Assembly: GCA_009773765.1 (NCBI GenBank)
Contig: WTWZ01000003.1
Location: 62,001-126,000 of the forward strand
From: Prolixibacteraceae bacterium
Lineage (GTDB): Bacteria; Bacteroidota; Bacteroidia; Bacteroidales; Prolixibacteraceae
DNA length: 64,000 nucleotides
Direction of reading: 5' to 3'
Notes under the pieces: model-generated
Told to the model about the DNA's origin: nothing
What the model saw: only the letters and a program-made list of their open reading frames with translations
The model's database searches: none
Made by a program: the position numbers and the translations under genes
Shown here: positions 2,963 through 59,739 of the stretch, piece after piece
Layout of the letters: every line of letters starts with the position of its first letter
Position numbering within the stretch: position 1 is the first letter of the stretch

Positions 2963-3046
2963 GCCCGGGTGGCGGAATTGGTAGACGCGCTGGATTCAAA
3001 ATCCAGTTCTGGCAACAGAGTGCGGGTTCGATTCCCGCCCCGGGTA
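2963..3046 (+). tRNA. tRNA-Leu (anticodon CAA)
   Basis: An 84-nt class II tRNA. The acceptor stem pairs 2963-2969 (GCCCGGG) with 3039-3045 (CCCGGGT, with a G-T first pair), followed by discriminator A at 3046. The anticodon stem CTGGA/TCCAG encloses loop TTCAAAA, so the anticodon is CAA, reading UUG. A long variable arm, as in leucine tRNAs, and a T-arm GCGGG-TTCGATT-CCCGC are clear. CCA is not encoded. Confidence 0.97.
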
Positions 3047-3196: not shown

Positions 3197-5902
3197 ATGA
3201 AAAAACACATTTTACTATCACTGATTCTTGTATTTGCTTTTTTACTTCCCTGTAAATCAAAAGATAATGAAGCCGCTTTTTCAATTAAAGCTGAAAAATA
3301 CATGCTCGAAAACGGGTTAACCGTGGTGTTGCACGAAGACAAATCAGACCCGATTGCATCGGTTGCAGTTTATTATCATGTGGGTTCTTCGCGCGAAACC
3401 GAAGGGAAAACCGGGTTTGCCCATTTATTTGAACACATGATGTTCCAACGTTCTGAAAATGTCCAGGAAGATCAGTTCTTTAAAAATATTCAAGGCGCAG
3501 GCGGAACTTTAAACGGAAGCACCAGTCAGGACAGGACCAATTACTTCGAAGTGGTTCCGAAAAATGCGCTGGAAATGGTCTTATGGATGGAATCGGACCG
3601 CATGGGATATCTTGAAAACACCGTGACCCAGGCTTCCCTCGTCAACCAGCAAAATGTTGTTCAAAACGAAAAACGCCAGGGTTACGATAATGCACCCTAT
3701 GGATTTAACCAGGGTTTGATACTTAAAAGTCTTTACCCCAAAGGACATCCGTACAGTTGGACTGTGATAGGCGAGATGGGAGACCTAACCAACGCAACGG
3801 TTGACGATGTTAAATCTTTTCACCGGAAATTTTATTCTCCAAACAATGCTTTCCTGGTGATAACCGGCGACTTTGACAAAGCTGAAGTAAAAAAATGGGT
3901 TGAAAAATATTTTGGGGAAATTCCGAAAGGTGAAAACATTGAAAAAAGAAAACCAATGAACGTTACACTTTCTGAAACCAAAAAACTATTTCACGAAGAT
4001 AATTTTGCCAAAGCCCCGATGCTGACAATAGTTTTCCCTACTGTTGAAAGGTATTCCAAAGATTCGTACGCACTCAACTTTCTGGGCGAATTGCTGGCAG
4101 GCACAAAAAAATCGCCGCTTTACACGGTTCTCGTTAAGGACAAAAAACTTACATCGAGGGTGATGGCGCGTAACGGTTCGCAGGAACTAGCAGGCGCTTT
4201 CACCATTTCGGTAACTGCTAACCCCGGCGTTAACCTCACCGAAGTTGAAAATGCAATTTTTGAAGGTTTTGCCAAATTTGAAAAAGATGGGTTCGCCGTT
4301 GAGGATTTGGAACGGATAAAAGCCGGTTACGAAACCAGCTTTGTCAGCCGTTTTTCGAGTGTTCAGGGAAAAGCATTTACGTTGGCTGAATATACGATGA
4401 ATACCGGAGACCCGCTGTATTATGAAAAGGAACTTGCTGGTTTTATGAATGTTACAGCAGGAGATATTAAATCGGTTTATGAAAAATACATAAAAGGGAA
4501 AAACTTCATCGAAACCAACTTTGTCCCGAAAGGGCAGGCAAACCTGGCGGTAAAAGACGCTGTAAATGCAGGAATTGAAGAGGAGGACCCATCTAAAGCT
4601 GCCGAAGTGAAAACAGCGGCAGTTGAAGAAGGGCCCATCATAAAAACTCCTTCAAAAATCGACCGCTCTGTAATGCCGCCCATTGGTCCCGACCCAGAGG
4701 TTTCTAATCCAAAACCCTGGACAGGTTCTCTTTCAAACGGCATGAAACTGATGGGAATCAAACAAAGCGAACTCCCGATGGTACAGTATTCAATTACCAT
4801 TGAGGGTGGCCGGTTGTTTGACAGTGTTGAAAAAGCCGGAGTTGCAAGCCTTCTGGGGTCGATGATGAACGAAGGCACCAAAACCAAAACACCCGAAGAA
4901 CTTGAACTGGCAATCGGACTTCTCGGTGCTTCGATTTATTTTTCATCGGGCGATGAAAATATTTCAGCCAATGTCACCACTCTCGAAAAAAACTTTGAAA
5001 AAACACTTGTTTTGGTTGAGGAAATGTTACTTGAACCTCGCTGGGATGAGGAACAGTTTGGGTTGGCAAAAAGCAGGGTTGTAAACAATTTGAAACGTAA
5101 CGCAGGCAATCCCGATTATCTGGCTTCGGGCAACCTGAACAAACTCATCTATGGCGATAATATTCTGGCAATAGATGCCTCGGGAACGGAAGAAACTGTT
5201 GCCTCAATCACCATTGGCGATTTGAAAGATTATTACAACAAATATTTTTCACCGTCAATATCTCAATTCCTAATTGTTGGCGATATTGAAAAACAGAGGG
5301 TTGAAAAAGCGCTTGCCAGCCTGAACCGCAAATGGAAAGCAAAAAAGGTTGAGGTCCCGGAATTCACGCTGCCTGAACCGCCTGCAAAATCACAAATTTA
5401 TTTTGTCGATATGCCGGGGGCCAAACAGTCGGTTATCAGTATTGGCGCGCCGGGACTTCCGCGTACAAACCCCGATTTTTACGCGGCAACAGTTGCCAAT
5501 TACACAGGCTCTTTTGTTGCCTCTTCGAAAGTAAGAACCAATTCAACCCTTGAATCGGTCAACATTTTTAAAACCGAAATGGAAAAATACCGGAATGAAA
5601 TTCCGCAGGAATATGTTGATTTTACGAAGTCGGCGCTGATGAAAGGAAACGCCCTTAGATTTGAAACCCCGGGCGATTTACTGGGTATAATAAGAAATAT
5701 TTCTTCATACAACCTGCCCTTTGACTACATCAAAAAGGAAGAGGCTTTTGTAAAGGAACTTACACCTGAAAAGTTACGCCGATATGCTGTAAAATACATC
5801 GATCCTGCCAAAATGTATTATGTGGTGGTGGGCGATGCTGCAACTCAGTTAAATGAACTTGAAAAGGTTGGTTTAGGGAAACCTGTTTTGATTGAGAATT
5901 GA
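3197..5902 (+). CDS. M16-family zinc metallopeptidase, two-domain
   Basis: A 901-residue exported insulinase/pitrilysin-type peptidase. The N-terminus is a signal peptide (MKKHILLSLILVFAFLLP); a Cys near residue 19 follows but is preceded by Pro, so lipidation is doubtful. The first M16 half holds the inverted zinc motif HLFEH (H76, E79, H80) and the distal glutamate in QNEKR (E158). The second half, from about residue 510 (WTGSLSNGMKLMGIKQSELPM), has the same fold without HxxEH and would be the inactive partner that closes the clamshell. It probably degrades peptides in the periplasm. It stands alone, convergent with the M48 gene. Confidence 0.93.
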   Translation: MKKHILLSLILVFAFLLPCKSKDNEAAFSIKAEKYMLENGLTVVLHEDKSDPIASVAVYYHVGSSRETEGKTGFAHLFEHMMFQRSENVQEDQFFKNIQGAGGTLNGSTSQDRTNYFEVVPKNALEMVLWMESDRMGYLENTVTQASLVNQQNVVQNEKRQGYDNAPYGFNQGLILKSLYPKGHPYSWTVIGEMGDLTNATVDDVKSFHRKFYSPNNAFLVITGDFDKAEVKKWVEKYFGEIPKGENIEKRKPMNVTLSETKKLFHEDNFAKAPMLTIVFPTVERYSKDSYALNFLGELLAGTKKSPLYTVLVKDKKLTSRVMARNGSQELAGAFTISVTANPGVNLTEVENAIFEGFAKFEKDGFAVEDLERIKAGYETSFVSRFSSVQGKAFTLAEYTMNTGDPLYYEKELAGFMNVTAGDIKSVYEKYIKGKNFIETNFVPKGQANLAVKDAVNAGIEEEDPSKAAEVKTAAVEEGPIIKTPSKIDRSVMPPIGPDPEVSNPKPWTGSLSNGMKLMGIKQSELPMVQYSITIEGGRLFDSVEKAGVASLLGSMMNEGTKTKTPEELELAIGLLGASIYFSSGDENISANVTTLEKNFEKTLVLVEEMLLEPRWDEEQFGLAKSRVVNNLKRNAGNPDYLASGNLNKLIYGDNILAIDASGTEETVASITIGDLKDYYNKYFSPSISQFLIVGDIEKQRVEKALASLNRKWKAKKVEVPEFTLPEPPAKSQIYFVDMPGAKQSVISIGAPGLPRTNPDFYAATVANYTGSFVASSKVRTNSTLESVNIFKTEMEKYRNEIPQEYVDFTKSALMKGNALRFETPGDLLGIIRNISSYNLPFDYIKKEEAFVKELTPEKLRRYAVKYIDPAKMYYVVVGDAATQLNELEKVGLGKPVLIEN

Positions 5903-53435: not shown

Positions 53436-54719
53436 ATGAAAAGGACGCTTATTTCTATTCTGTGCTTTACAATTATTATTCATGCATCAGGGCAACAATT
53501 CTTAACAGAGGAAATCGCTGAAGCTCAAACTCCTGTAAACATTGGGCTGGAAGAAGTTAATAAATTGTTTACACCACCGGCGACATTTTCAAAAACCTTA
53601 AAATCGGGTGGTACAAAAACTGGTAACATATCAGTTACCTATCTAAATTTCCCGGAAGAGGCAAAAGTTGCGTTTGAATATGCTGTTTCTATATGGGAAA
53701 AAAGTGTTTTTTCGCCTGTTCAAATTAACATCCATGCCAACTGGAAGAATTTATCGGAGAACTTACTCGCAAATGGAAAACCATCTCTTTTCTATCGAAA
53801 TTTTAAAGGTACACCTCAACCCAACATATTTTATCCGGTTGCATTGGTCGAAAAGATAACCGGAAAGGAATACAATAGTCCCACAGAGGCGGACATTACC
53901 TGTAACTTTAACAAATCGAAATCATGGTATTTTGGAACTAACGGAAAAACACCTACTAATCAATATGATTTTGTAACAGCGGTATTACATGAAATTGGGC
54001 ATGGATTAGGAATTTCAGGATTCTTCACGTTCGAAAACGGAGTTGGCAAGTACAGCAACTCAAGCAATTCGCCAAGCGTTTATGACTATTTTGTTTTTAA
54101 TACAAATCAGCAGCGGATTACGGACCAATCATTGTTCCCAAGTCCATCACTGGAACTTACGGAACAACTCACATCAAATTCATTGGTTTTTAATTATACA
54201 ACTGATAATAATGTGATATCCGACGTTTCAGTTTATGCCCCAACATCATGGGTGAATGGAATTAGTATTTATCATCTGAAAAAAAGCAATTTTTCAACAG
54301 GTGTACCAAGCGAATTAATGAGTGCCCATGCTTATAAAGGAGAAGCTATTCACAACCCGGGCGAAAAAACACTTTATGTTTTATCTGAATTAGGCTGGAC
54401 AGTGAATGCTCCTGAAAAAGAAGCAATAGCAGTAAATGGCAATAACAAAGAAAAACCGGCAATTGAAAGTGTGAATGTGTATCCAAATCCTTTCTCAGGG
54501 AATTTGACTTTTGATTTTGAAAAAATTAACTACCAGACATTAGTTGATATAACTATTACCGATTTAATGGGGAAAACAGTTTTCCGCCAAAAAATGAACG
54601 ATATTAAATACAATCCCAAATTACAAGTTGACTTATCGATGATTAAATCAGGAATTTACATGGCCATTTTAACCGATTCAAATCAAAAAACCATATCTAA
54701 AAGAATTATAAAAAATTAA
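53436..54719 (+). CDS. T9SS-secreted zinc metalloprotease (leishmanolysin-like site)
   Basis: A 427-residue secreted protein with signal peptide (MKRTLISILCFTIIIHASGQ). The zinc motif is HEIGHGLGISGF (185-196). The usual third His of metzincins at motif position 11 is Gly; a conserved ISIYHL (H280) followed by ELMSAH (Met295, possible Met-turn) may supply it, as in leishmanolysin-type enzymes. The last 75 residues are a type 9 secretion sorting domain (VYPNPFSGNLTFDFEK, MIKSGIYMAILTDSNQKTIS). A larger paralogue lies downstream. A propeptide or other regulation is not evident. Confidence 0.85.
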   Translation: MKRTLISILCFTIIIHASGQQFLTEEIAEAQTPVNIGLEEVNKLFTPPATFSKTLKSGGTKTGNISVTYLNFPEEAKVAFEYAVSIWEKSVFSPVQINIHANWKNLSENLLANGKPSLFYRNFKGTPQPNIFYPVALVEKITGKEYNSPTEADITCNFNKSKSWYFGTNGKTPTNQYDFVTAVLHEIGHGLGISGFFTFENGVGKYSNSSNSPSVYDYFVFNTNQQRITDQSLFPSPSLELTEQLTSNSLVFNYTTDNNVISDVSVYAPTSWVNGISIYHLKKSNFSTGVPSELMSAHAYKGEAIHNPGEKTLYVLSELGWTVNAPEKEAIAVNGNNKEKPAIESVNVYPNPFSGNLTFDFEKINYQTLVDITITDLMGKTVFRQKMNDIKYNPKLQVDLSMIKSGIYMAILTDSNQKTISKRIIKN

Positions 54720-55005: not shown

Positions 55006-55033
55006 TCATTTTAATCTATTGAAATCGGAACAG

Positions 55034-57514
55034 GTGAAAAAAATAATATTTCTGTTGGCTATTTACAGTTTAATCGATATTCGTTTTGTTAATGCTCAGA
55101 ACGAAACCAAAATGAGAAAATTAAGAGTTCCCCATCCTGTATGTTATGCCTCTGAAAATGTGGAAAAATCATATATTCCTCCTCCCAGGGAGTTTCTGTT
55201 AAAATCGAATGCTGAGAAAAAATCAAACATTGTTGTTAGTTACAGTTTGTTCCCGGCAAATGCAAAAGAAGCATTTGAATACGCGGTAAGTATTTGGGAG
55301 CATATTATTGAATCAGATATACCAATTTATGTTGAAGCCAGATGGCGTACAATGGATAATAATATTTTGGGAAGTGCAGGCCCATCAGACTATTACGCCA
55401 ATTTTGAATATGCACCCCGAAAAAATCGTTTTTATCCAATTTCAGTTGCCGAAAAAATAACAAAATCTGAAATTTCAGGCCCCGGATCACCTGATATTGT
55501 CGCAACGTTTAACAAAGAAACCAAATGGTATTTTGGTACTGACGGCAAAACCCCTGAACTGCTTTACGATTTTGTAACCGTTGTTTTACACGAAATTGGC
55601 CATGGCCTCGGTTTTACCGGCTTCTTTTTTGTGACTGGCAATGTTGGCGGCTACGGAAATGACAATGCAGGAGATGCCGCAGCTTTTGATATAATGGTTA
55701 TAAACGATAAAAATGAACAGTTAACCGACAAAAATATTTTTAATATGCCCTCCACAGGCCTATACAACGCTTTTGTTTCCAATCAATTGTTCTCCAACAG
55801 CCAGGCAGCAATCGCCGGTAATACAGGAAATAAAGCCCGATTATACGCTCCTTCAATATGGAACGATGGTTCAAGCATTTATCATTTAAACGAATCAACA
55901 TATCCATCCAATACCGAAAATTCGCTGATGACCCATGCCATTGGGAAAGGCGAAGCAGTACACAATCCGGGGCCAATAACAAGGGGAATACTCGCTGATA
56001 TTGGTTGGAAACACATGAAAATCAAACTCGATAAACCCAAAGATATTGAAGAAAAAAAACCAATTTCTTTCATTCTATCCATTGAAAGTGATACTGAAAC
56101 GGATTCAAATGCGGTTATTCTCCACTTTTCACCCGACGGTTTTAAGAGTAAAAAGGACTCGTTAAAATTGGTATCAAACCCAACTAAAGGACAGTTTTCA
56201 ACAACCTTAAACCCCACTATAGATTCGGGCAAAATTGATTATTACATTGTTGCCAGGGACAAAATGGCGCGTGCTTTTTCAGTACCCACAGAAGCCCCTT
56301 CAGAATTATATTCGGTAAAAATCGGGCCCGATAATGAGCCTCCAGTAATCAGTCACAAACCAATACCGTATTTTGTTTCAAATAAAAATGACATCGTAAT
56401 TTCCACAATTGCCGATGATAATCTTGGATTAGATTCAGTTTATGTAGAATTTTCAATTAACGATATCCAGCAACAATCATTTGATTTAAAACTTGATTCG
56501 AATACCATTTATTCCGGATTTTTTAAACCCGGTTTTAACCTTCTAAATGATGGAGACATAATAAAATACCGGATTTATGCCATTGATTCGTCGAAAGTAA
56601 AAAACAAAACAGTAAGCCCGGTTAATAATTATTACAGTTTCAGGATTGAAAAAATATTTGAGCCGATTGACGGTTATTATAATGATTTCAACATTTCATC
56701 AAAAGATTTTATCATCTCCGACTTTGATATTTATACCGAAAAGGGATTTGAAAACGGATCCCTTCACAGCCCTCATCCTTACCGTAGCCCCAATAAAAAC
56801 AATACAACCTTTAATTTTACCACTTTGCTTAAATATCCTGTTATTCTGAAGGAAAGCGGAACAATGAGTTTTGATGAAATAGTGCTTGTAGAACCTGGTG
56901 AAAATCTCTCGAAATTTGGAGACGATGATTTTTGGGATTATGTAATTGTTGAAGGAAGTAAGGATAACGGGAAAACCTGGCTCCCACTGGCTAATGGTTA
57001 TGACTCGGGGGCCAATGCAACATGGAAAATAAATTACAATAAGAATTTGGTAAATCAGGTTTCAACCACCGTGGGAATCCCTGAATGGTATGTAAACCGC
57101 GAAATAAAGCTACTCGAAAACGGTAACTTTAAAGCTAACGATACCATTTTAATACAATTCAGGTTATTTTCCGATCCGTATGCAAACGGCTGGGGCTGGA
57201 CTATAGATAATTTACGCATTCAAACACCCGTTTCATCACAGGCATTGGTGTTATCTCCCGGAAATATTTTGGTTTATCCCAATCCATTCAGCAATGTTTT
57301 AAATGTTAATGTACAGGCTAAGAACAATATTGATGAATTAACCCTTGAAATATTCAGCCTATACGGACAAAAGGTAGCATCGGCTCAAAAGAAAAACTTT
57401 TTTGGTGAAATTAAGTTTGAGGTTAATTTAAGCCATCTTTCCATCGGTATGTATTTGTTAATTATCAGGGAAAACGGCAAACAGGTTTTTTCAAAAAAAA
57501 TAATCAGAAATTGA
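55034..57514 (+). CDS. T9SS-secreted zinc metalloprotease, large paralogue
   Basis: 826 residues from the GTG at 55034; a TTG at 55019 is the alternative, and no ATG fits. A signal peptide ends near RFVNAQ. The protease domain shares the layout of the upstream paralogue: HEIGHGLGFTGF (186-197), SSIYHLNE (H284), NSLMTHA (Met299). Then come about 430 residues of beta-sandwich modules (GPDNEPPVISHKPIPYFVSN, WDYVIVEGSKDNGKTWLPLA), the second resembling immune-type or MAM-like adhesion folds. It ends in a type 9 sorting domain (VYPNPFSNVLNVNVQAKNNI, LSIGMYLLIIRENGKQVFSK). It is secreted or surface-anchored; the substrate is unknown. Confidence 0.85.
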   Translation: MKKIIFLLAIYSLIDIRFVNAQNETKMRKLRVPHPVCYASENVEKSYIPPPREFLLKSNAEKKSNIVVSYSLFPANAKEAFEYAVSIWEHIIESDIPIYVEARWRTMDNNILGSAGPSDYYANFEYAPRKNRFYPISVAEKITKSEISGPGSPDIVATFNKETKWYFGTDGKTPELLYDFVTVVLHEIGHGLGFTGFFFVTGNVGGYGNDNAGDAAAFDIMVINDKNEQLTDKNIFNMPSTGLYNAFVSNQLFSNSQAAIAGNTGNKARLYAPSIWNDGSSIYHLNESTYPSNTENSLMTHAIGKGEAVHNPGPITRGILADIGWKHMKIKLDKPKDIEEKKPISFILSIESDTETDSNAVILHFSPDGFKSKKDSLKLVSNPTKGQFSTTLNPTIDSGKIDYYIVARDKMARAFSVPTEAPSELYSVKIGPDNEPPVISHKPIPYFVSNKNDIVISTIADDNLGLDSVYVEFSINDIQQQSFDLKLDSNTIYSGFFKPGFNLLNDGDIIKYRIYAIDSSKVKNKTVSPVNNYYSFRIEKIFEPIDGYYNDFNISSKDFIISDFDIYTEKGFENGSLHSPHPYRSPNKNNTTFNFTTLLKYPVILKESGTMSFDEIVLVEPGENLSKFGDDDFWDYVIVEGSKDNGKTWLPLANGYDSGANATWKINYNKNLVNQVSTTVGIPEWYVNREIKLLENGNFKANDTILIQFRLFSDPYANGWGWTIDNLRIQTPVSSQALVLSPGNILVYPNPFSNVLNVNVQAKNNIDELTLEIFSLYGQKVASAQKKNFFGEIKFEVNLSHLSIGMYLLIIRENGKQVFSKKIIRN

Positions 57515-57578
57515 AGAGGGGTATTTAAACAATTCAAAGCAAATTCTAACGAAATGAATCAATTTCAAAATATATCTC

Positions 57579-57586
57579 TATATTTG
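57579..57586 (+). promoter_or_regulatory. -7 box of the tyrA operon
   Basis: TATATTTG matches TAnnTTTG and lies 18 bp before the leader-peptide ATG, so transcription would begin just ahead of the leader. Confidence 0.55.
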
Positions 57587-57604
57587 CCGTCATAATAATT
57601 AAAA

Positions 57605-57673
57605 ATGAAATCAAATTTTAACAATTCCTATTTTTACTTTTATTATGGTTCAAAAACCGGGATCAAAGAGTAG
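57605..57673 (+). CDS. Phe/Tyr-rich leader peptide of an attenuator
   Basis: A 22-codon frame with an aromatic run NNSYFYFYYG: six of seven consecutive codons, after an earlier Phe, are UAU/UAC or UUU, in all four Tyr and three Phe codons. The frame stops at 57673, 30 bp before a terminator hairpin, and the next gene is tyrA. This is the layout of classic translation-coupled attenuators such as pheL. Stalling at low charged tRNA-Tyr or tRNA-Phe would allow read-through. The antiterminator partner was not resolved by eye. Confidence 0.82.
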   Translation: MKSNFNNSYFYFYYGSKTGIKE

Positions 57674-57702
57674 GGTATTGTTGTTATCGAAAATATTTTA
57701 CC

Positions 57703-57735
57703 AAAAGGTCTCGAAAAAATCGGGGCCTTTTTTTT
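57703..57735 (+). terminator. Attenuator terminator before tyrA
   Basis: A 12-bp stem AAAAGGTCTCGA (57703-57714) / TCGGGGCCTTTT (57720-57731), two G-T pairs, A-rich loop, then a run of eight T residues (57728-57735). It ends 13 bp before the tyrA ATG. Confidence 0.9.
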
Positions 57736-57748
57736 ATGTAGCAAACAA

Positions 57749-58651
57749 ATGAATATAACAATTATTGGACTAGGGTTAATTGGCGGTTCGCTGGCTATTG
57801 ATTTACGAAAAAACAAATTTGCCACCGAGTTAATTGGTGTTGATTCCAGTGATGAAAATGCCGGACAGGCGTTGAAAATTGGATTGGTTGATCGCATTGA
57901 AAACCTGGAAGATGCGGTAAAAAATGCCGACATTGTTATTATTGCCATTCCGGTTGACAAGGAAGTAACTGTGCTTCCCAGGGTACTCGATTTAGTTAAC
58001 AGCACTACAACTGTCACCGATATGAGTTCAACCAAAAGGGTAATCATTGAGTCGGTCAAAAATCATCCGTCCCGAAAAAACTTTGTTCCGGCCCACCCCA
58101 TGTCGGGCACCGAAAATTCAGGGCCAAACGCCGCGCTCGAAGGCCTTTTCAAAGGTAAAATAACCATATTGTGCGATCAGTCCGACTCCGGCCCACAACA
58201 CCTGGCGTTAATTGAAAAAATGTTTCAAACCCTGGGAATGAGTATTGCCTATATGTCTGCCGACGAACAGGACCACAGCACAGCTTTTGTTTCGCATCTT
58301 CCCCATGCCGCGGCATACGCTCTTGCAAATGCCGTACAATCAAAAGAAGACCGAAATATTATTTTCGATTTGGCAAGCGGCGGATTTAATTCCACAGTGC
58401 GTTTGGCAAAAAGTTCGGGTACAATGTGGCACCCGATTTTTCAACAAAACCGCAATTACGTTGTTGAATCGCTGGACGTTTACATCAAACATTTGCAGGA
58501 ATTTCGTGATTGTCTGCAAAACGGGGAAGACGACAAACTTCACGATTTAATTGTAAATGCAAATAAAATAAGGGGAATCCTCGAAGGTGAAAATCCCCAT
58601 CTCATAAAAAATGAAGAAAAATTTGTGAAACTTTATACCAAAAAAACATGA
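57749..58651 (+). CDS. tyrA: Prephenate dehydrogenase
   Basis: A 300-residue NAD(P)-dependent enzyme converting prephenate to 4-hydroxyphenylpyruvate in tyrosine synthesis. The dinucleotide loop is GLGLIGGSLA at the N-terminus. The active-site region FVPAHPMSGTENSGPNAA has the conserved His, and HLPHAAAYALA follows. FDLASGGFNSTVRLAKSSGT is in the helical dimerisation part. It has no fused chorismate mutase; that activity is in the next gene, which overlaps by four bases (ATGA). The leader peptide and terminator upstream indicate attenuation by aromatic amino acid supply. Confidence 0.96.
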   Translation: MNITIIGLGLIGGSLAIDLRKNKFATELIGVDSSDENAGQALKIGLVDRIENLEDAVKNADIVIIAIPVDKEVTVLPRVLDLVNSTTTVTDMSSTKRVIIESVKNHPSRKNFVPAHPMSGTENSGPNAALEGLFKGKITILCDQSDSGPQHLALIEKMFQTLGMSIAYMSADEQDHSTAFVSHLPHAAAYALANAVQSKEDRNIIFDLASGGFNSTVRLAKSSGTMWHPIFQQNRNYVVESLDVYIKHLQEFRDCLQNGEDDKLHDLIVNANKIRGILEGENPHLIKNEEKFVKLYTKKT

Positions 58652-59739
58652 CATTAAAATTAGATATTAATCCGATAAAAATATGGTTGCCAAAATTGGA
58701 CAACCCTCTGTTAATTTCAGGCCCTTGCAGCCTTGAAACGGAAAAACAGGCTCTCGATACTGCCAGATTACTGGCTAAAGACAAACGGGTATTTGTTTAT
58801 CGCGGTGGAGTTTGGAAACCCCGGACCCGCCCCGGAATGTTTGAAGGTGTTGGATCGGTAGGTTTAAAATGGCTTCAATTGGTGAAACAGGAAACCGGGT
58901 TCCCGGTAGGTACTGAAGTTGCCAATGCCCAACATACCGAAGAAGCCTTGAAAGCCGGATTAGACGTGATTTGGATTGGCGCTCGCTCCACGGCCAGCCC
59001 GTTTGTGGTTCAGGAAATTGCTGATGTAGTGAAAGGCAGTAACGCTGTTGTAATGGTAAAAAATCCGGTAAATCCCGATGTGCAGTTGTGGATGGGTGCC
59101 ATTGAAAGGGTTTATCAGGCAGGCATTAAAAATATTGTTGCCATTCATCGTGGATTTACCCCTTTCAGGGAAACCAAATACCGGAATTATCCCAACTGGC
59201 AAACTGTTATTGAACTGCGAAGGTTGATGCCAAACCTGCCAATTATATGCGACCCAAGCCACATTGCCGGTAAACGCGAATACCTGTTCGAAATTTCACA
59301 AAAAGCTTTCGATATGGGCCTGGAGGGTTTGATGATAGAATCCCACATCGACCCGTCATGTGCGTTAAGTGATGCAGCGCAGCAACTTACGCCCGCCGAT
59401 TTGGCCAAATTACTCGACCGGCTTATAATCAGGCACGAAAGTGCAAACAACCCTGAATTTGAAAACCAATTGGATGTTTTGCGAAACCGTATCGATGCTA
59501 TTGATGTTGAATTGCTCGAAACACTATCGTCGAGGATGGAAATTGTAAAAGAAATTGGACGTTACAAAAAAGAGAACAATGTAACCGCTTTACAAATCAA
59601 CCGTTGGGCGCAGTTAATGGACGACAGGGTCAACCTGGGCAAAAAACTGGATTTAAACGATACTTTTGTGAAGATCCTTTTCCAGTTGATTCATGAAGAT
59701 TCAGTGCGGATGCAAACCGAAATAATGGACGAAGGGTAA
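58648..59739 (+). CDS. Bifunctional DAHP synthase / chorismate mutase
   Basis: A 363-residue fusion. Residues 1-265 are a type Ibeta DAHP synthase (ISGPCSLETEKQALDTA, YRGGVWKPRTRPGMFEGVG, MVKNPVNPDVQLWMGAIERV, ICDPSHIAGKREY), the first shikimate-pathway step. Residues about 272-360 are an AroQ-type chorismate mutase (LDVLRNRIDAIDVELLETLS, SRMEIVKEIGRYKKENN). This order (synthase first, mutase last) is the Bacteroidota form, in which the mutase domain can mediate feedback inhibition by prephenate. It overlaps tyrA and so is under the same attenuator, controlling both entry to the pathway and the branch to tyrosine. Confidence 0.96.
   Translation: MTLKLDINPIKIWLPKLDNPLLISGPCSLETEKQALDTARLLAKDKRVFVYRGGVWKPRTRPGMFEGVGSVGLKWLQLVKQETGFPVGTEVANAQHTEEALKAGLDVIWIGARSTASPFVVQEIADVVKGSNAVVMVKNPVNPDVQLWMGAIERVYQAGIKNIVAIHRGFTPFRETKYRNYPNWQTVIELRRLMPNLPIICDPSHIAGKREYLFEISQKAFDMGLEGLMIESHIDPSCALSDAAQQLTPADLAKLLDRLIIRHESANNPEFENQLDVLRNRIDAIDVELLETLSSRMEIVKEIGRYKKENNVTALQINRWAQLMDDRVNLGKKLDLNDTFVKILFQLIHEDSVRMQTEIMDEG

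Follow-up and report, generated by a model that had tools for sequence, protein, structure and literature searches.

We found, upstream of tyrA in a genome of the family Prolixibacteraceae, a small leader-peptide unit that, judging from comparative sequence analysis and RNA-fold modeling, is very probably a ribosome-mediated transcription attenuator of the operon encoding prephenate dehydrogenase (TyrA) and a DAHP synthase/chorismate mutase. The unit lies near the 3' end of the window, by which we mean the whole 64,000-nucleotide stretch of DNA that was analyzed (bases 62001-126000 of contig C33 of a draft genome, G000), and all its elements are on the plus strand. A TAnnTTTG box (TATATTTG, 57579-57586), which we take to be the -7 promoter motif of the Bacteroidota, stands in front of a leader ORF of 22 codons plus TAG (57605-57673, with the ATG at 57605 and the stop at 57671-57673), and transcription is expected to start a few bases 3' of the box. 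The encoded peptide, MKSNFNNSYFYFYYGSKTGIKE, contains the run YFYFYY, specified by the consecutive codons TAT TTT TAC TTT TAT TAT (57629-57646), the putative regulatory codons. The leader is followed by an intrinsic terminator (57703-57735) whose stem comprises 12 pairs in the terminator scan (57703-57714/57720-57731, loop 57715-57719) and whose run of eight T residues (57728-57735) has its first four positions within the stem. The tyrA gene (57749-58651, ATG at 57749) encodes a 300-aa protein identified with Pfam and NCBIfam models (NF006307, 344 bits against a cut-off of 295), and, among named records, the tyrA genes closest to it are those of uncultured Prolixibacteraceae, Draconibacterium and Maribellus. 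It overlaps by 4 bp (58648-58651) the gene for a 363-aa DAHP synthase fused to a type II chorismate mutase (58648-59739; PF00793 and PF01817, both above cut-offs). Because the next gene, encoding Ribonuclease P protein, is on the opposite strand, the operon consists of two genes. The succession of promoter box, 22-codon leader, 12-bp terminator with eight T residues and tyrA, which an earlier sequence-only reading had placed at 57579-57748, was directly confirmed. On the other side of the unit are two genes (53436-54719 and 55019-57514) whose products look alike by eye in their N-terminal halves; the product of the second has a C-terminal sorting domain for type IX secretion, scored above cut-off, and a sub-threshold match to a metalloprotease model.

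The aromatic run alone proves nothing, since six consecutive Phe/Tyr codons gave 31 matches in the genome of the window (some of them overlapping, and the leader's own included) against 52 for the reversed control pattern in the same AT-rich genome. A genome-wide search for such runs was discarded as useless for detection, the runs being no commoner than the control in the window's genome and matches being many across the taxonomic class. It is the leader, the terminator and the following gene taken together that are unusual. A combined scan, which required an ORF of 9-45 codons in which five or more of eight residues are aromatic, a terminator at most 110 nt past the stop codon and a gene start after it, detected, for F/Y/W, one place on the plus strand of the 64-kb window, the tyrA leader, and none on the minus strand; no second aromatic leader-terminator-gene arrangement was found in the window. 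With six other residue classes, the same scan gave two places on the plus strand and one on the minus strand, and the window holds 10 intrinsic terminators per strand. That the observation is real follows from its conservation: the unit is present in front of tyrA in every genome of the genus that gave a tyrA match (34/34). Draconibacterium orientale (L090), which is a named species of the genus, carries it as well.

These 34 genomes come from a genus sample of 37 that includes the window's own. The tyrA match was absent in G012 and weak and partial in G015 and G018; among the others, tyrA of G027 is split by a frame break and the match in G029 starts without the first 11 residues. The GGTCTCG hairpin and its T run are kept in 34/34 loci and the leader frame is intact in 33, while in the remaining locus (L023) the frame is shifted by one base and stops prematurely where the RNA arm described below begins; this leader is still aromatic. 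Typical leaders are MTTKFNNNYFYFYFYYGSENGVRK and MRTIANISYFWFYFYYGSQLGIRK; their Tyr and Phe codons differ at the third base by synonymous changes, several positions have Y, F or W interchangeably, and the codons near the N terminus drift. The window and L025 have two codons fewer in the aromatic run than the other leaders of the genus. The nucleotides of the antiterminator arm are nearly fixed. In all 21 distinct leaders of 24 codons, codon 21 is GGG or GAG and codon 22 is ATC or GTC, and these two codons hold the bases that the RNA arm requires, wobble positions included. A TAnnTTTG box was found within 60 nt 5' of the leader ATG in 33 of the 34 loci, at a distance of 18-21 bases in 31 of them; L004 has TATATTTA, which is not TAnnTTTG. 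The distance from the T run to tyrA ranges from 11 to 126 nt in the genus. The sequence-only reading had proposed looking in related genomes for conserved aromatic codons and for the leader frame and hairpin; the codons are there, with Y, F and W exchanged, and the hairpin and an aromatic leader are kept throughout the 34 loci.

Within the unit, the sequence CGGGAUC (57658-57664; CGGGATC in the DNA), located inside the leader ORF, is complementary to GGUCUCG (57707-57713; GGTCTCG), which is part of the 5' arm of the terminator. We refer to this pairing as helix A. Just inside it, GUAGGGUAUU (57670-57679; GTAGGGTATT in the DNA), which holds the UAG stop codon of the leader, pairs with AAUAUUUUAC (57692-57701; AATATTTTAC) to give helix B. 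Helix A has 7/7 pairs in all 34 loci of the genus and helix B has 7-10 of 10, with a G.G mismatch in L022, L024 and L026. The geometry is also fixed: counted between first bases, it is 14 nt from the last aromatic codon to the arm of helix A and 13 nt from that arm to the stop codon, each in 32/34 loci. Because the arms had first been located by motif patterns, further tests were run with RNAalifold and with slid and shuffled versions of the helices. For 37 sequences of the family cut before the 3' arm of the terminator (alignment A2), RNAalifold predicted helix A with no pairs supplied and predicted nothing besides it, helix B included; its covariation term was small (-0.35), and, as aligned by MAFFT, L100, L102, L104 and L126 do not conform to helix A. 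When both helices were given, 94.8% of the cells in the 37 sequences were paired (93.6% for helix B alone), compared with 33-53% when the helices were slid by 1-3 columns. The covariation score was 0.185, whereas slid versions reached at most 0.089 and shuffled ones had a mean of 0.158, with 0/500 shuffles reaching 0.185. Five pairs showed two-sided changes against a shuffled mean of 1.4 (0 of 500 shuffles), but this count alone is a weak measure because slid versions also reach 5 pairs, and the number of cells with such changes (9 against up to 11) does not discriminate either. By sequence and fold model, the unit has an antiterminator that would exclude the terminator and would in turn be prevented by a ribosome standing on the stop codon. 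Such a competing fold, which the sequence-only reading had suggested searching for, is present and conserved, and its changes track those of the terminator.

A covariance model of the antiterminator built from 37 sequences matched 35/37 genomes of the genus, once in each except G011, and gave no match in G012 (73% complete) and G018 (93%, 590 contigs). The second match in G011 is weak and lies away from tyrA (G011:C77:130604-130675, E 2.6e-4). Under stricter filters, 83/120 genomes and 17/23 genera of the family had a match. Among the 63 matching genomes outside the genus, we examined 30 loci, 10 as returned and 20 chosen by hand; three of them (L324, L335 and L350) belong to genomes used to train the model (as L105, L126 and L112) and 27 are new. 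In all 30 the match precedes tyrA and has an aromatic leader, and in 29 a 7-base stretch pairs 7/7 with the terminator arm, counted as the best of about 35 placements of 7 bases in a stretch of about 40 bases; by our estimate, a full match by chance would be expected in a few per cent of loci. The pairings include CGGGAUC:GGUCCCG, GGGGAUC:GGUCCCC, AGGGAUC:GGUCCCU, GGAGAUC:GGUCUCC and CGGAAUC:GGUUCCG, among others, and pair 1 of helix A is CG in 19 loci, GC in 8, AU in 1, UG in 1 and unpaired in 1. The leaders outside the genus contain Trp in 27 of the 30 loci, often as FYYWFYYF, and in all seven named loci; Trp occurs in 5/34 leaders of the genus. Since Trp is so frequent outside the genus, the ancestral sensor of the family probably read Phe, Tyr and Trp, and Trp was probably lost in most of the genus. 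Such a sensor fits the presence of DAHP synthase in the operon, because this is the first enzyme for all three amino acids. The unit had been described as a sensor of Phe and Tyr, which holds for the YFYFYY run of the window, but it is better called an aromatic sensor in view of the Trp codons in its relatives. At the tyrA loci of other phyla that we looked at, no aromatic leader was present (9/9).

Outside the family, we scanned 80 DAHP synthase/chorismate mutase loci of the order, hand-picked from matches in 119 genomes with a preference for loci that have upstream sequence. They represent 76 genomes (G041, G273, G286 and G331 gave two each) and include one locus, L142 (G304), from the window's own family. 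On the coding strand the scan gave 43 matches at 41 terminators in 35/80 loci, two of the matches (L197 and L205) being second frames at terminators already counted; no match was obtained on the opposite strand, and 45 loci showed no unit. A relaxed version of the scan raised the number of loci to 36/80. A stretch 3' of the aromatic run was complementary to the 5' arm of the terminator at p<0.05 in 34/41 units (20 of them at p<0.01), compared with 2/41 for control stretches 5' of the leader. The leaders of other families have little in common except their aromatic density; by sequence comparison, the units differ widely between families and share a common logic. In these families the first gene after the leader often has the length of a pheA (275-300 aa). 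In the genus, pheA lies apart from tyrA and the scan found no leader at 13/13 pheA loci (L222-L234). In a draw from the class, 14/25 pheA (PF00800) loci, the window's own excluded and 23 of them outside the order, had a leader and terminator 5' of the gene in a scan made without a control and without a distance-to-gene requirement. At trpE, a Trp leader with a terminator was found in 23/29 listed loci of the order besides the window's own (48 genomes had a match), while the same scan gave 4 loci for His, 3 for Cys and 4 for Met, and on the opposite strand 2 for Trp, 0 for His, 2 for Cys and 4 for Met. The Trp leader is about 1.2 kb 5' of trpE in eight of the order loci. The simple antiterminator test reached p<0.05 in 4/24 trp units of the genus and 1/24 of the order, so the trp leaders must use another layout; the same result indicates that leaders do not pass this test indiscriminately.

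How a ribosome on the leader might control the two folds was examined by simulation of the 34 genus sequences, in which the ribosome was assumed to cover 12 nt beginning with the A-site codon. Before the 3' arm of the terminator exists, the mean predicted chance of helix A was 0.91 with a ribosome at the last aromatic codon, 0.56 with a ribosome at the first aromatic codon, 0.17 without a ribosome and 0.00 with a ribosome at the stop codon. In L007, an extra Phe near the arm breaks this pattern. Once the 3' arm is complete, the terminator was favored in all ribosome states, with means of 0.996-1.0 and no single value below 0.92. The switch must therefore be kinetic and depend on the pacing of polymerase and ribosome. 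Without a ribosome, helix A was disfavored in 28/34 sequences and had a chance above 0.5 in the other six, among them the window's own sequence, at 0.95. Most relatives were predicted to have a fold in which CGGGAUC is hidden in the absence of a ribosome; none was predicted in the window's own sequence, which thus seems to be without the safeguard against untranslated transcripts that most relatives have.

We propose that the unit works as follows. RNA polymerase would start slightly 5' of the leader and a ribosome would follow on the leader. When both Tyr-tRNA and Phe-tRNA are well charged, the ribosome would pass the YFYFYY run and reach the stop codon, where it would cover CGGGAUC and the stop-codon helix; the terminator stem (57703-57731) could then form, and transcription would end before tyrA. 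When either tRNA is poorly charged, the ribosome would stall on the run and leave CGGGAUC free to pair with GGUCUCG as soon as the latter has been made, with helix B helping inside. Helix A would then occupy the 5' arm of the terminator, and the polymerase would read into tyrA and the DAHP synthase gene. The leader-peptide attenuation that the sequence-only reading had put forward gains support from the conserved leader, hairpin and antiterminator in the relatives.

The same data bear on three other explanations. A stalled ribosome could instead alter access to the tyrA start or protect the message, with termination being unregulated. Leaders of the erm type act by effects of this kind, and the strong preference for the terminator at equilibrium speaks in its favor; however, the alternative pairing takes the 5' arm of an intrinsic terminator that has its T run and leaves the tyrA start uninvolved, and the variable distance from T run to tyrA (11-126 nt among the genus loci) fits termination better than masking of a start site. 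We regard this explanation as highly improbable. Slightly less credit still is due to the idea that the small ORF is incidental and the hairpin does no more than terminate transcription of the upstream gene (55019-57514). That gene ends 190 bp before the hairpin, the scan shows no other terminator-like site in between, and intrinsic terminators are common in the window. Against this, the hairpin is preceded by a promoter box and a leader frame that are both conserved, all 34 genus loci have an aromatic leader and the complement needed for helix A, which co-vary across the family, and codons 21-22 keep the arm bases, including wobble positions, in each of the 21 distinct 24-codon leaders. Conservation of the small ORF for a functional hydrophobic peptide, to which the intact frame with its synonymous changes would point, is just as poorly favored, because Y, F and W replace one another and the codons at the N terminus drift, whereas the arm nucleotides stay nearly fixed, and because leaders of other families share little except aromatic density.

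We turn next to units arranged in series. In 10 of the 80 order loci, all from other families, two leader-terminator units stand one after the other in front of the aromatic operon (L162, L163, L177, L183, L184, L185, L194, L196, L197 and L214). Six of them (L162, L163, L177, L194, L196 and L214) were found by the first script. L197 came from the relaxed script, which named another frame, and its ATG frame was read by eye; L183, L184 and L185 emerged from reading 12 loci, among which L182 and L169 showed no second unit. L181 was dropped as a candidate, the other match being 3.4 kb away and having four aromatic residues. In the 10 loci the second leader starts 10-35 nt past the first terminator and no TAnnTTTG box lies between the units (10/10). 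With so short a spacer and no promoter box in it, the second unit would be transcribed only after read-through of the first. Antiterminators at p<0.05 were obtained for 6/10 first units (those of L162, L183, L185 and L196 fell short), for 9/10 second units (that of L185 fell short) and for both units in 6/10 loci; four of the second units were tested with hand-chosen segments and single-base shuffles. In L197 (about 4280-4403, oriented), the second leader has its stop codon within the 5' arm of the terminator belonging to the same unit, which would place a ribosome that completes this leader on the terminator.

Serial units also occur within the genus, at trpE. Two Trp units in series were found in 12/13 genomes, the window's own included, and the contig of the thirteenth is too short. 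In the window's own genome the units, MIKNTNTIWLPWWGLLT and MQLNNNFWWWHSNFLQP, are 17 bases apart and lie outside the window, 5' of trpE (188215-188652, minus strand of G000:C33; L246 1049-1312, reverse complement). At tyrA the window has a single unit with no second one. We lean toward the view that the Bacteroidia control aromatic synthesis by a large and fast-evolving set of leader-peptide attenuators, in which two units of the same type are often stacked for a sharper response. Under this view, read-through of two units in series would need two stalled ribosomes, and the response would be roughly squared and hence sharper and tighter. If this is true, the single Phe/Tyr unit of the window is the simple form, in a lineage that has mostly lost the Trp codon.

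The trp, his, pheA and ilv operons of E. coli are controlled by ribosome-mediated leader-peptide attenuators. Like them, the window unit has a short leader rich in codons for the product, a terminator before the first gene and a predicted, mutually exclusive antiterminator whose 5' arm would be covered by a ribosome at the stop codon. Unlike them, it would read Phe and Tyr, and in relatives also Trp, in one run; the 5' arm of its antiterminator is inside the leader ORF and the inner helix holds the stop codon; and no protector fold is predicted in the window's own sequence. Moreover, E. coli attenuates pheA, whereas the window unit precedes tyrA and the DAHP synthase gene. The mechanism class is thus a known one. 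Rfam searches were made at the gathering score with the window and 18 related loci (137 kb), and with 57540-57760 at E values up to 10. At the gathering score the sole match in the whole window was a tRNA (2963-3046), with no T-box leader among the matches, and the 18 related loci gave no match, so no Rfam family at threshold covers the window unit. The search of 57540-57760 gave weak matches below threshold. Among them, Phe_leader (RF01859), which by its description as a phenylalanine leader peptide resembles the unit, was rejected: its 22.4 bits (E 0.099) did not reach the gathering score of 55, and it ranked below a Tetrahymena snoRNA (E 0.029) and did no better than unrelated families in the list.

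What is unusual is the predicted sensing of two or three aromatic amino acids, the wide turnover of sequence with a constant logic across the order, and the arrangement of units in series, both in relatives and at trpE of the same genome. Naville and Gautheret (2010; PMC2965389), in the parts of the article available to us, were aware of no such system for amino acids beyond the Proteobacteria and Actinobacteria until their own Firmicutes case, and the main text, to the same extent, has no word beginning with Bacteroid- or Flavobacteri-. For the same phylum as the window, the accessible portions of two papers give 'strong clues' for leader-peptide attenuation 5' of amino-acid biosynthesis operons in Flavobacterium psychrophilum (PMC9723704) and mention small ORFs of Bacteroides thetaiotaomicron that resemble leaders (PMC7366714). 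The mechanism proposed in those portions is the same as that of the window unit, but they name no aromatic operon, antiterminator or tandem units, in which they differ from the present loci. More on leader-peptide attenuation may be held in Lopatovskaya (2010), as cited in an available part of PMC4833913. For the Bacteroidota, our searches of the open-licence PMC literature yielded no paper describing an aromatic or a tandem attenuator. The suggestion in the sequence-only reading that an attenuator of this kind is little described needs correction in so far as the accessible text on Flavobacterium (PMC9723704) gives clues to leader-peptide attenuation in the phylum.

According to the part of PMC9976891 available to us, ribosomes of this group do not use Shine-Dalgarno sequences. 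Conservation of the switch would be an indirect sign of transcription-translation coupling in the Bacteroidia, because the ribosome must pace the polymerase. For the Prolixibacteraceae, tyrA and the entry enzyme of aromatic synthesis gain a testable candidate RNA switch with named base pairs. As for tandem leader-ORF attenuators elsewhere, the only case that we found described in the open-licence literature is Salmonella mgtCBR, which, in the accessible text of PMC3641672, carries two leader-ORF attenuators in one leader RNA that sense two different signals, ATP and proline. Compared with that description, the tandem relatives of the window unit are distinct in that both units are aromatic (or Trp) and each has its own intrinsic terminator, the two standing in series. 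Their serial units allow one to ask what two like sensors do beyond one.
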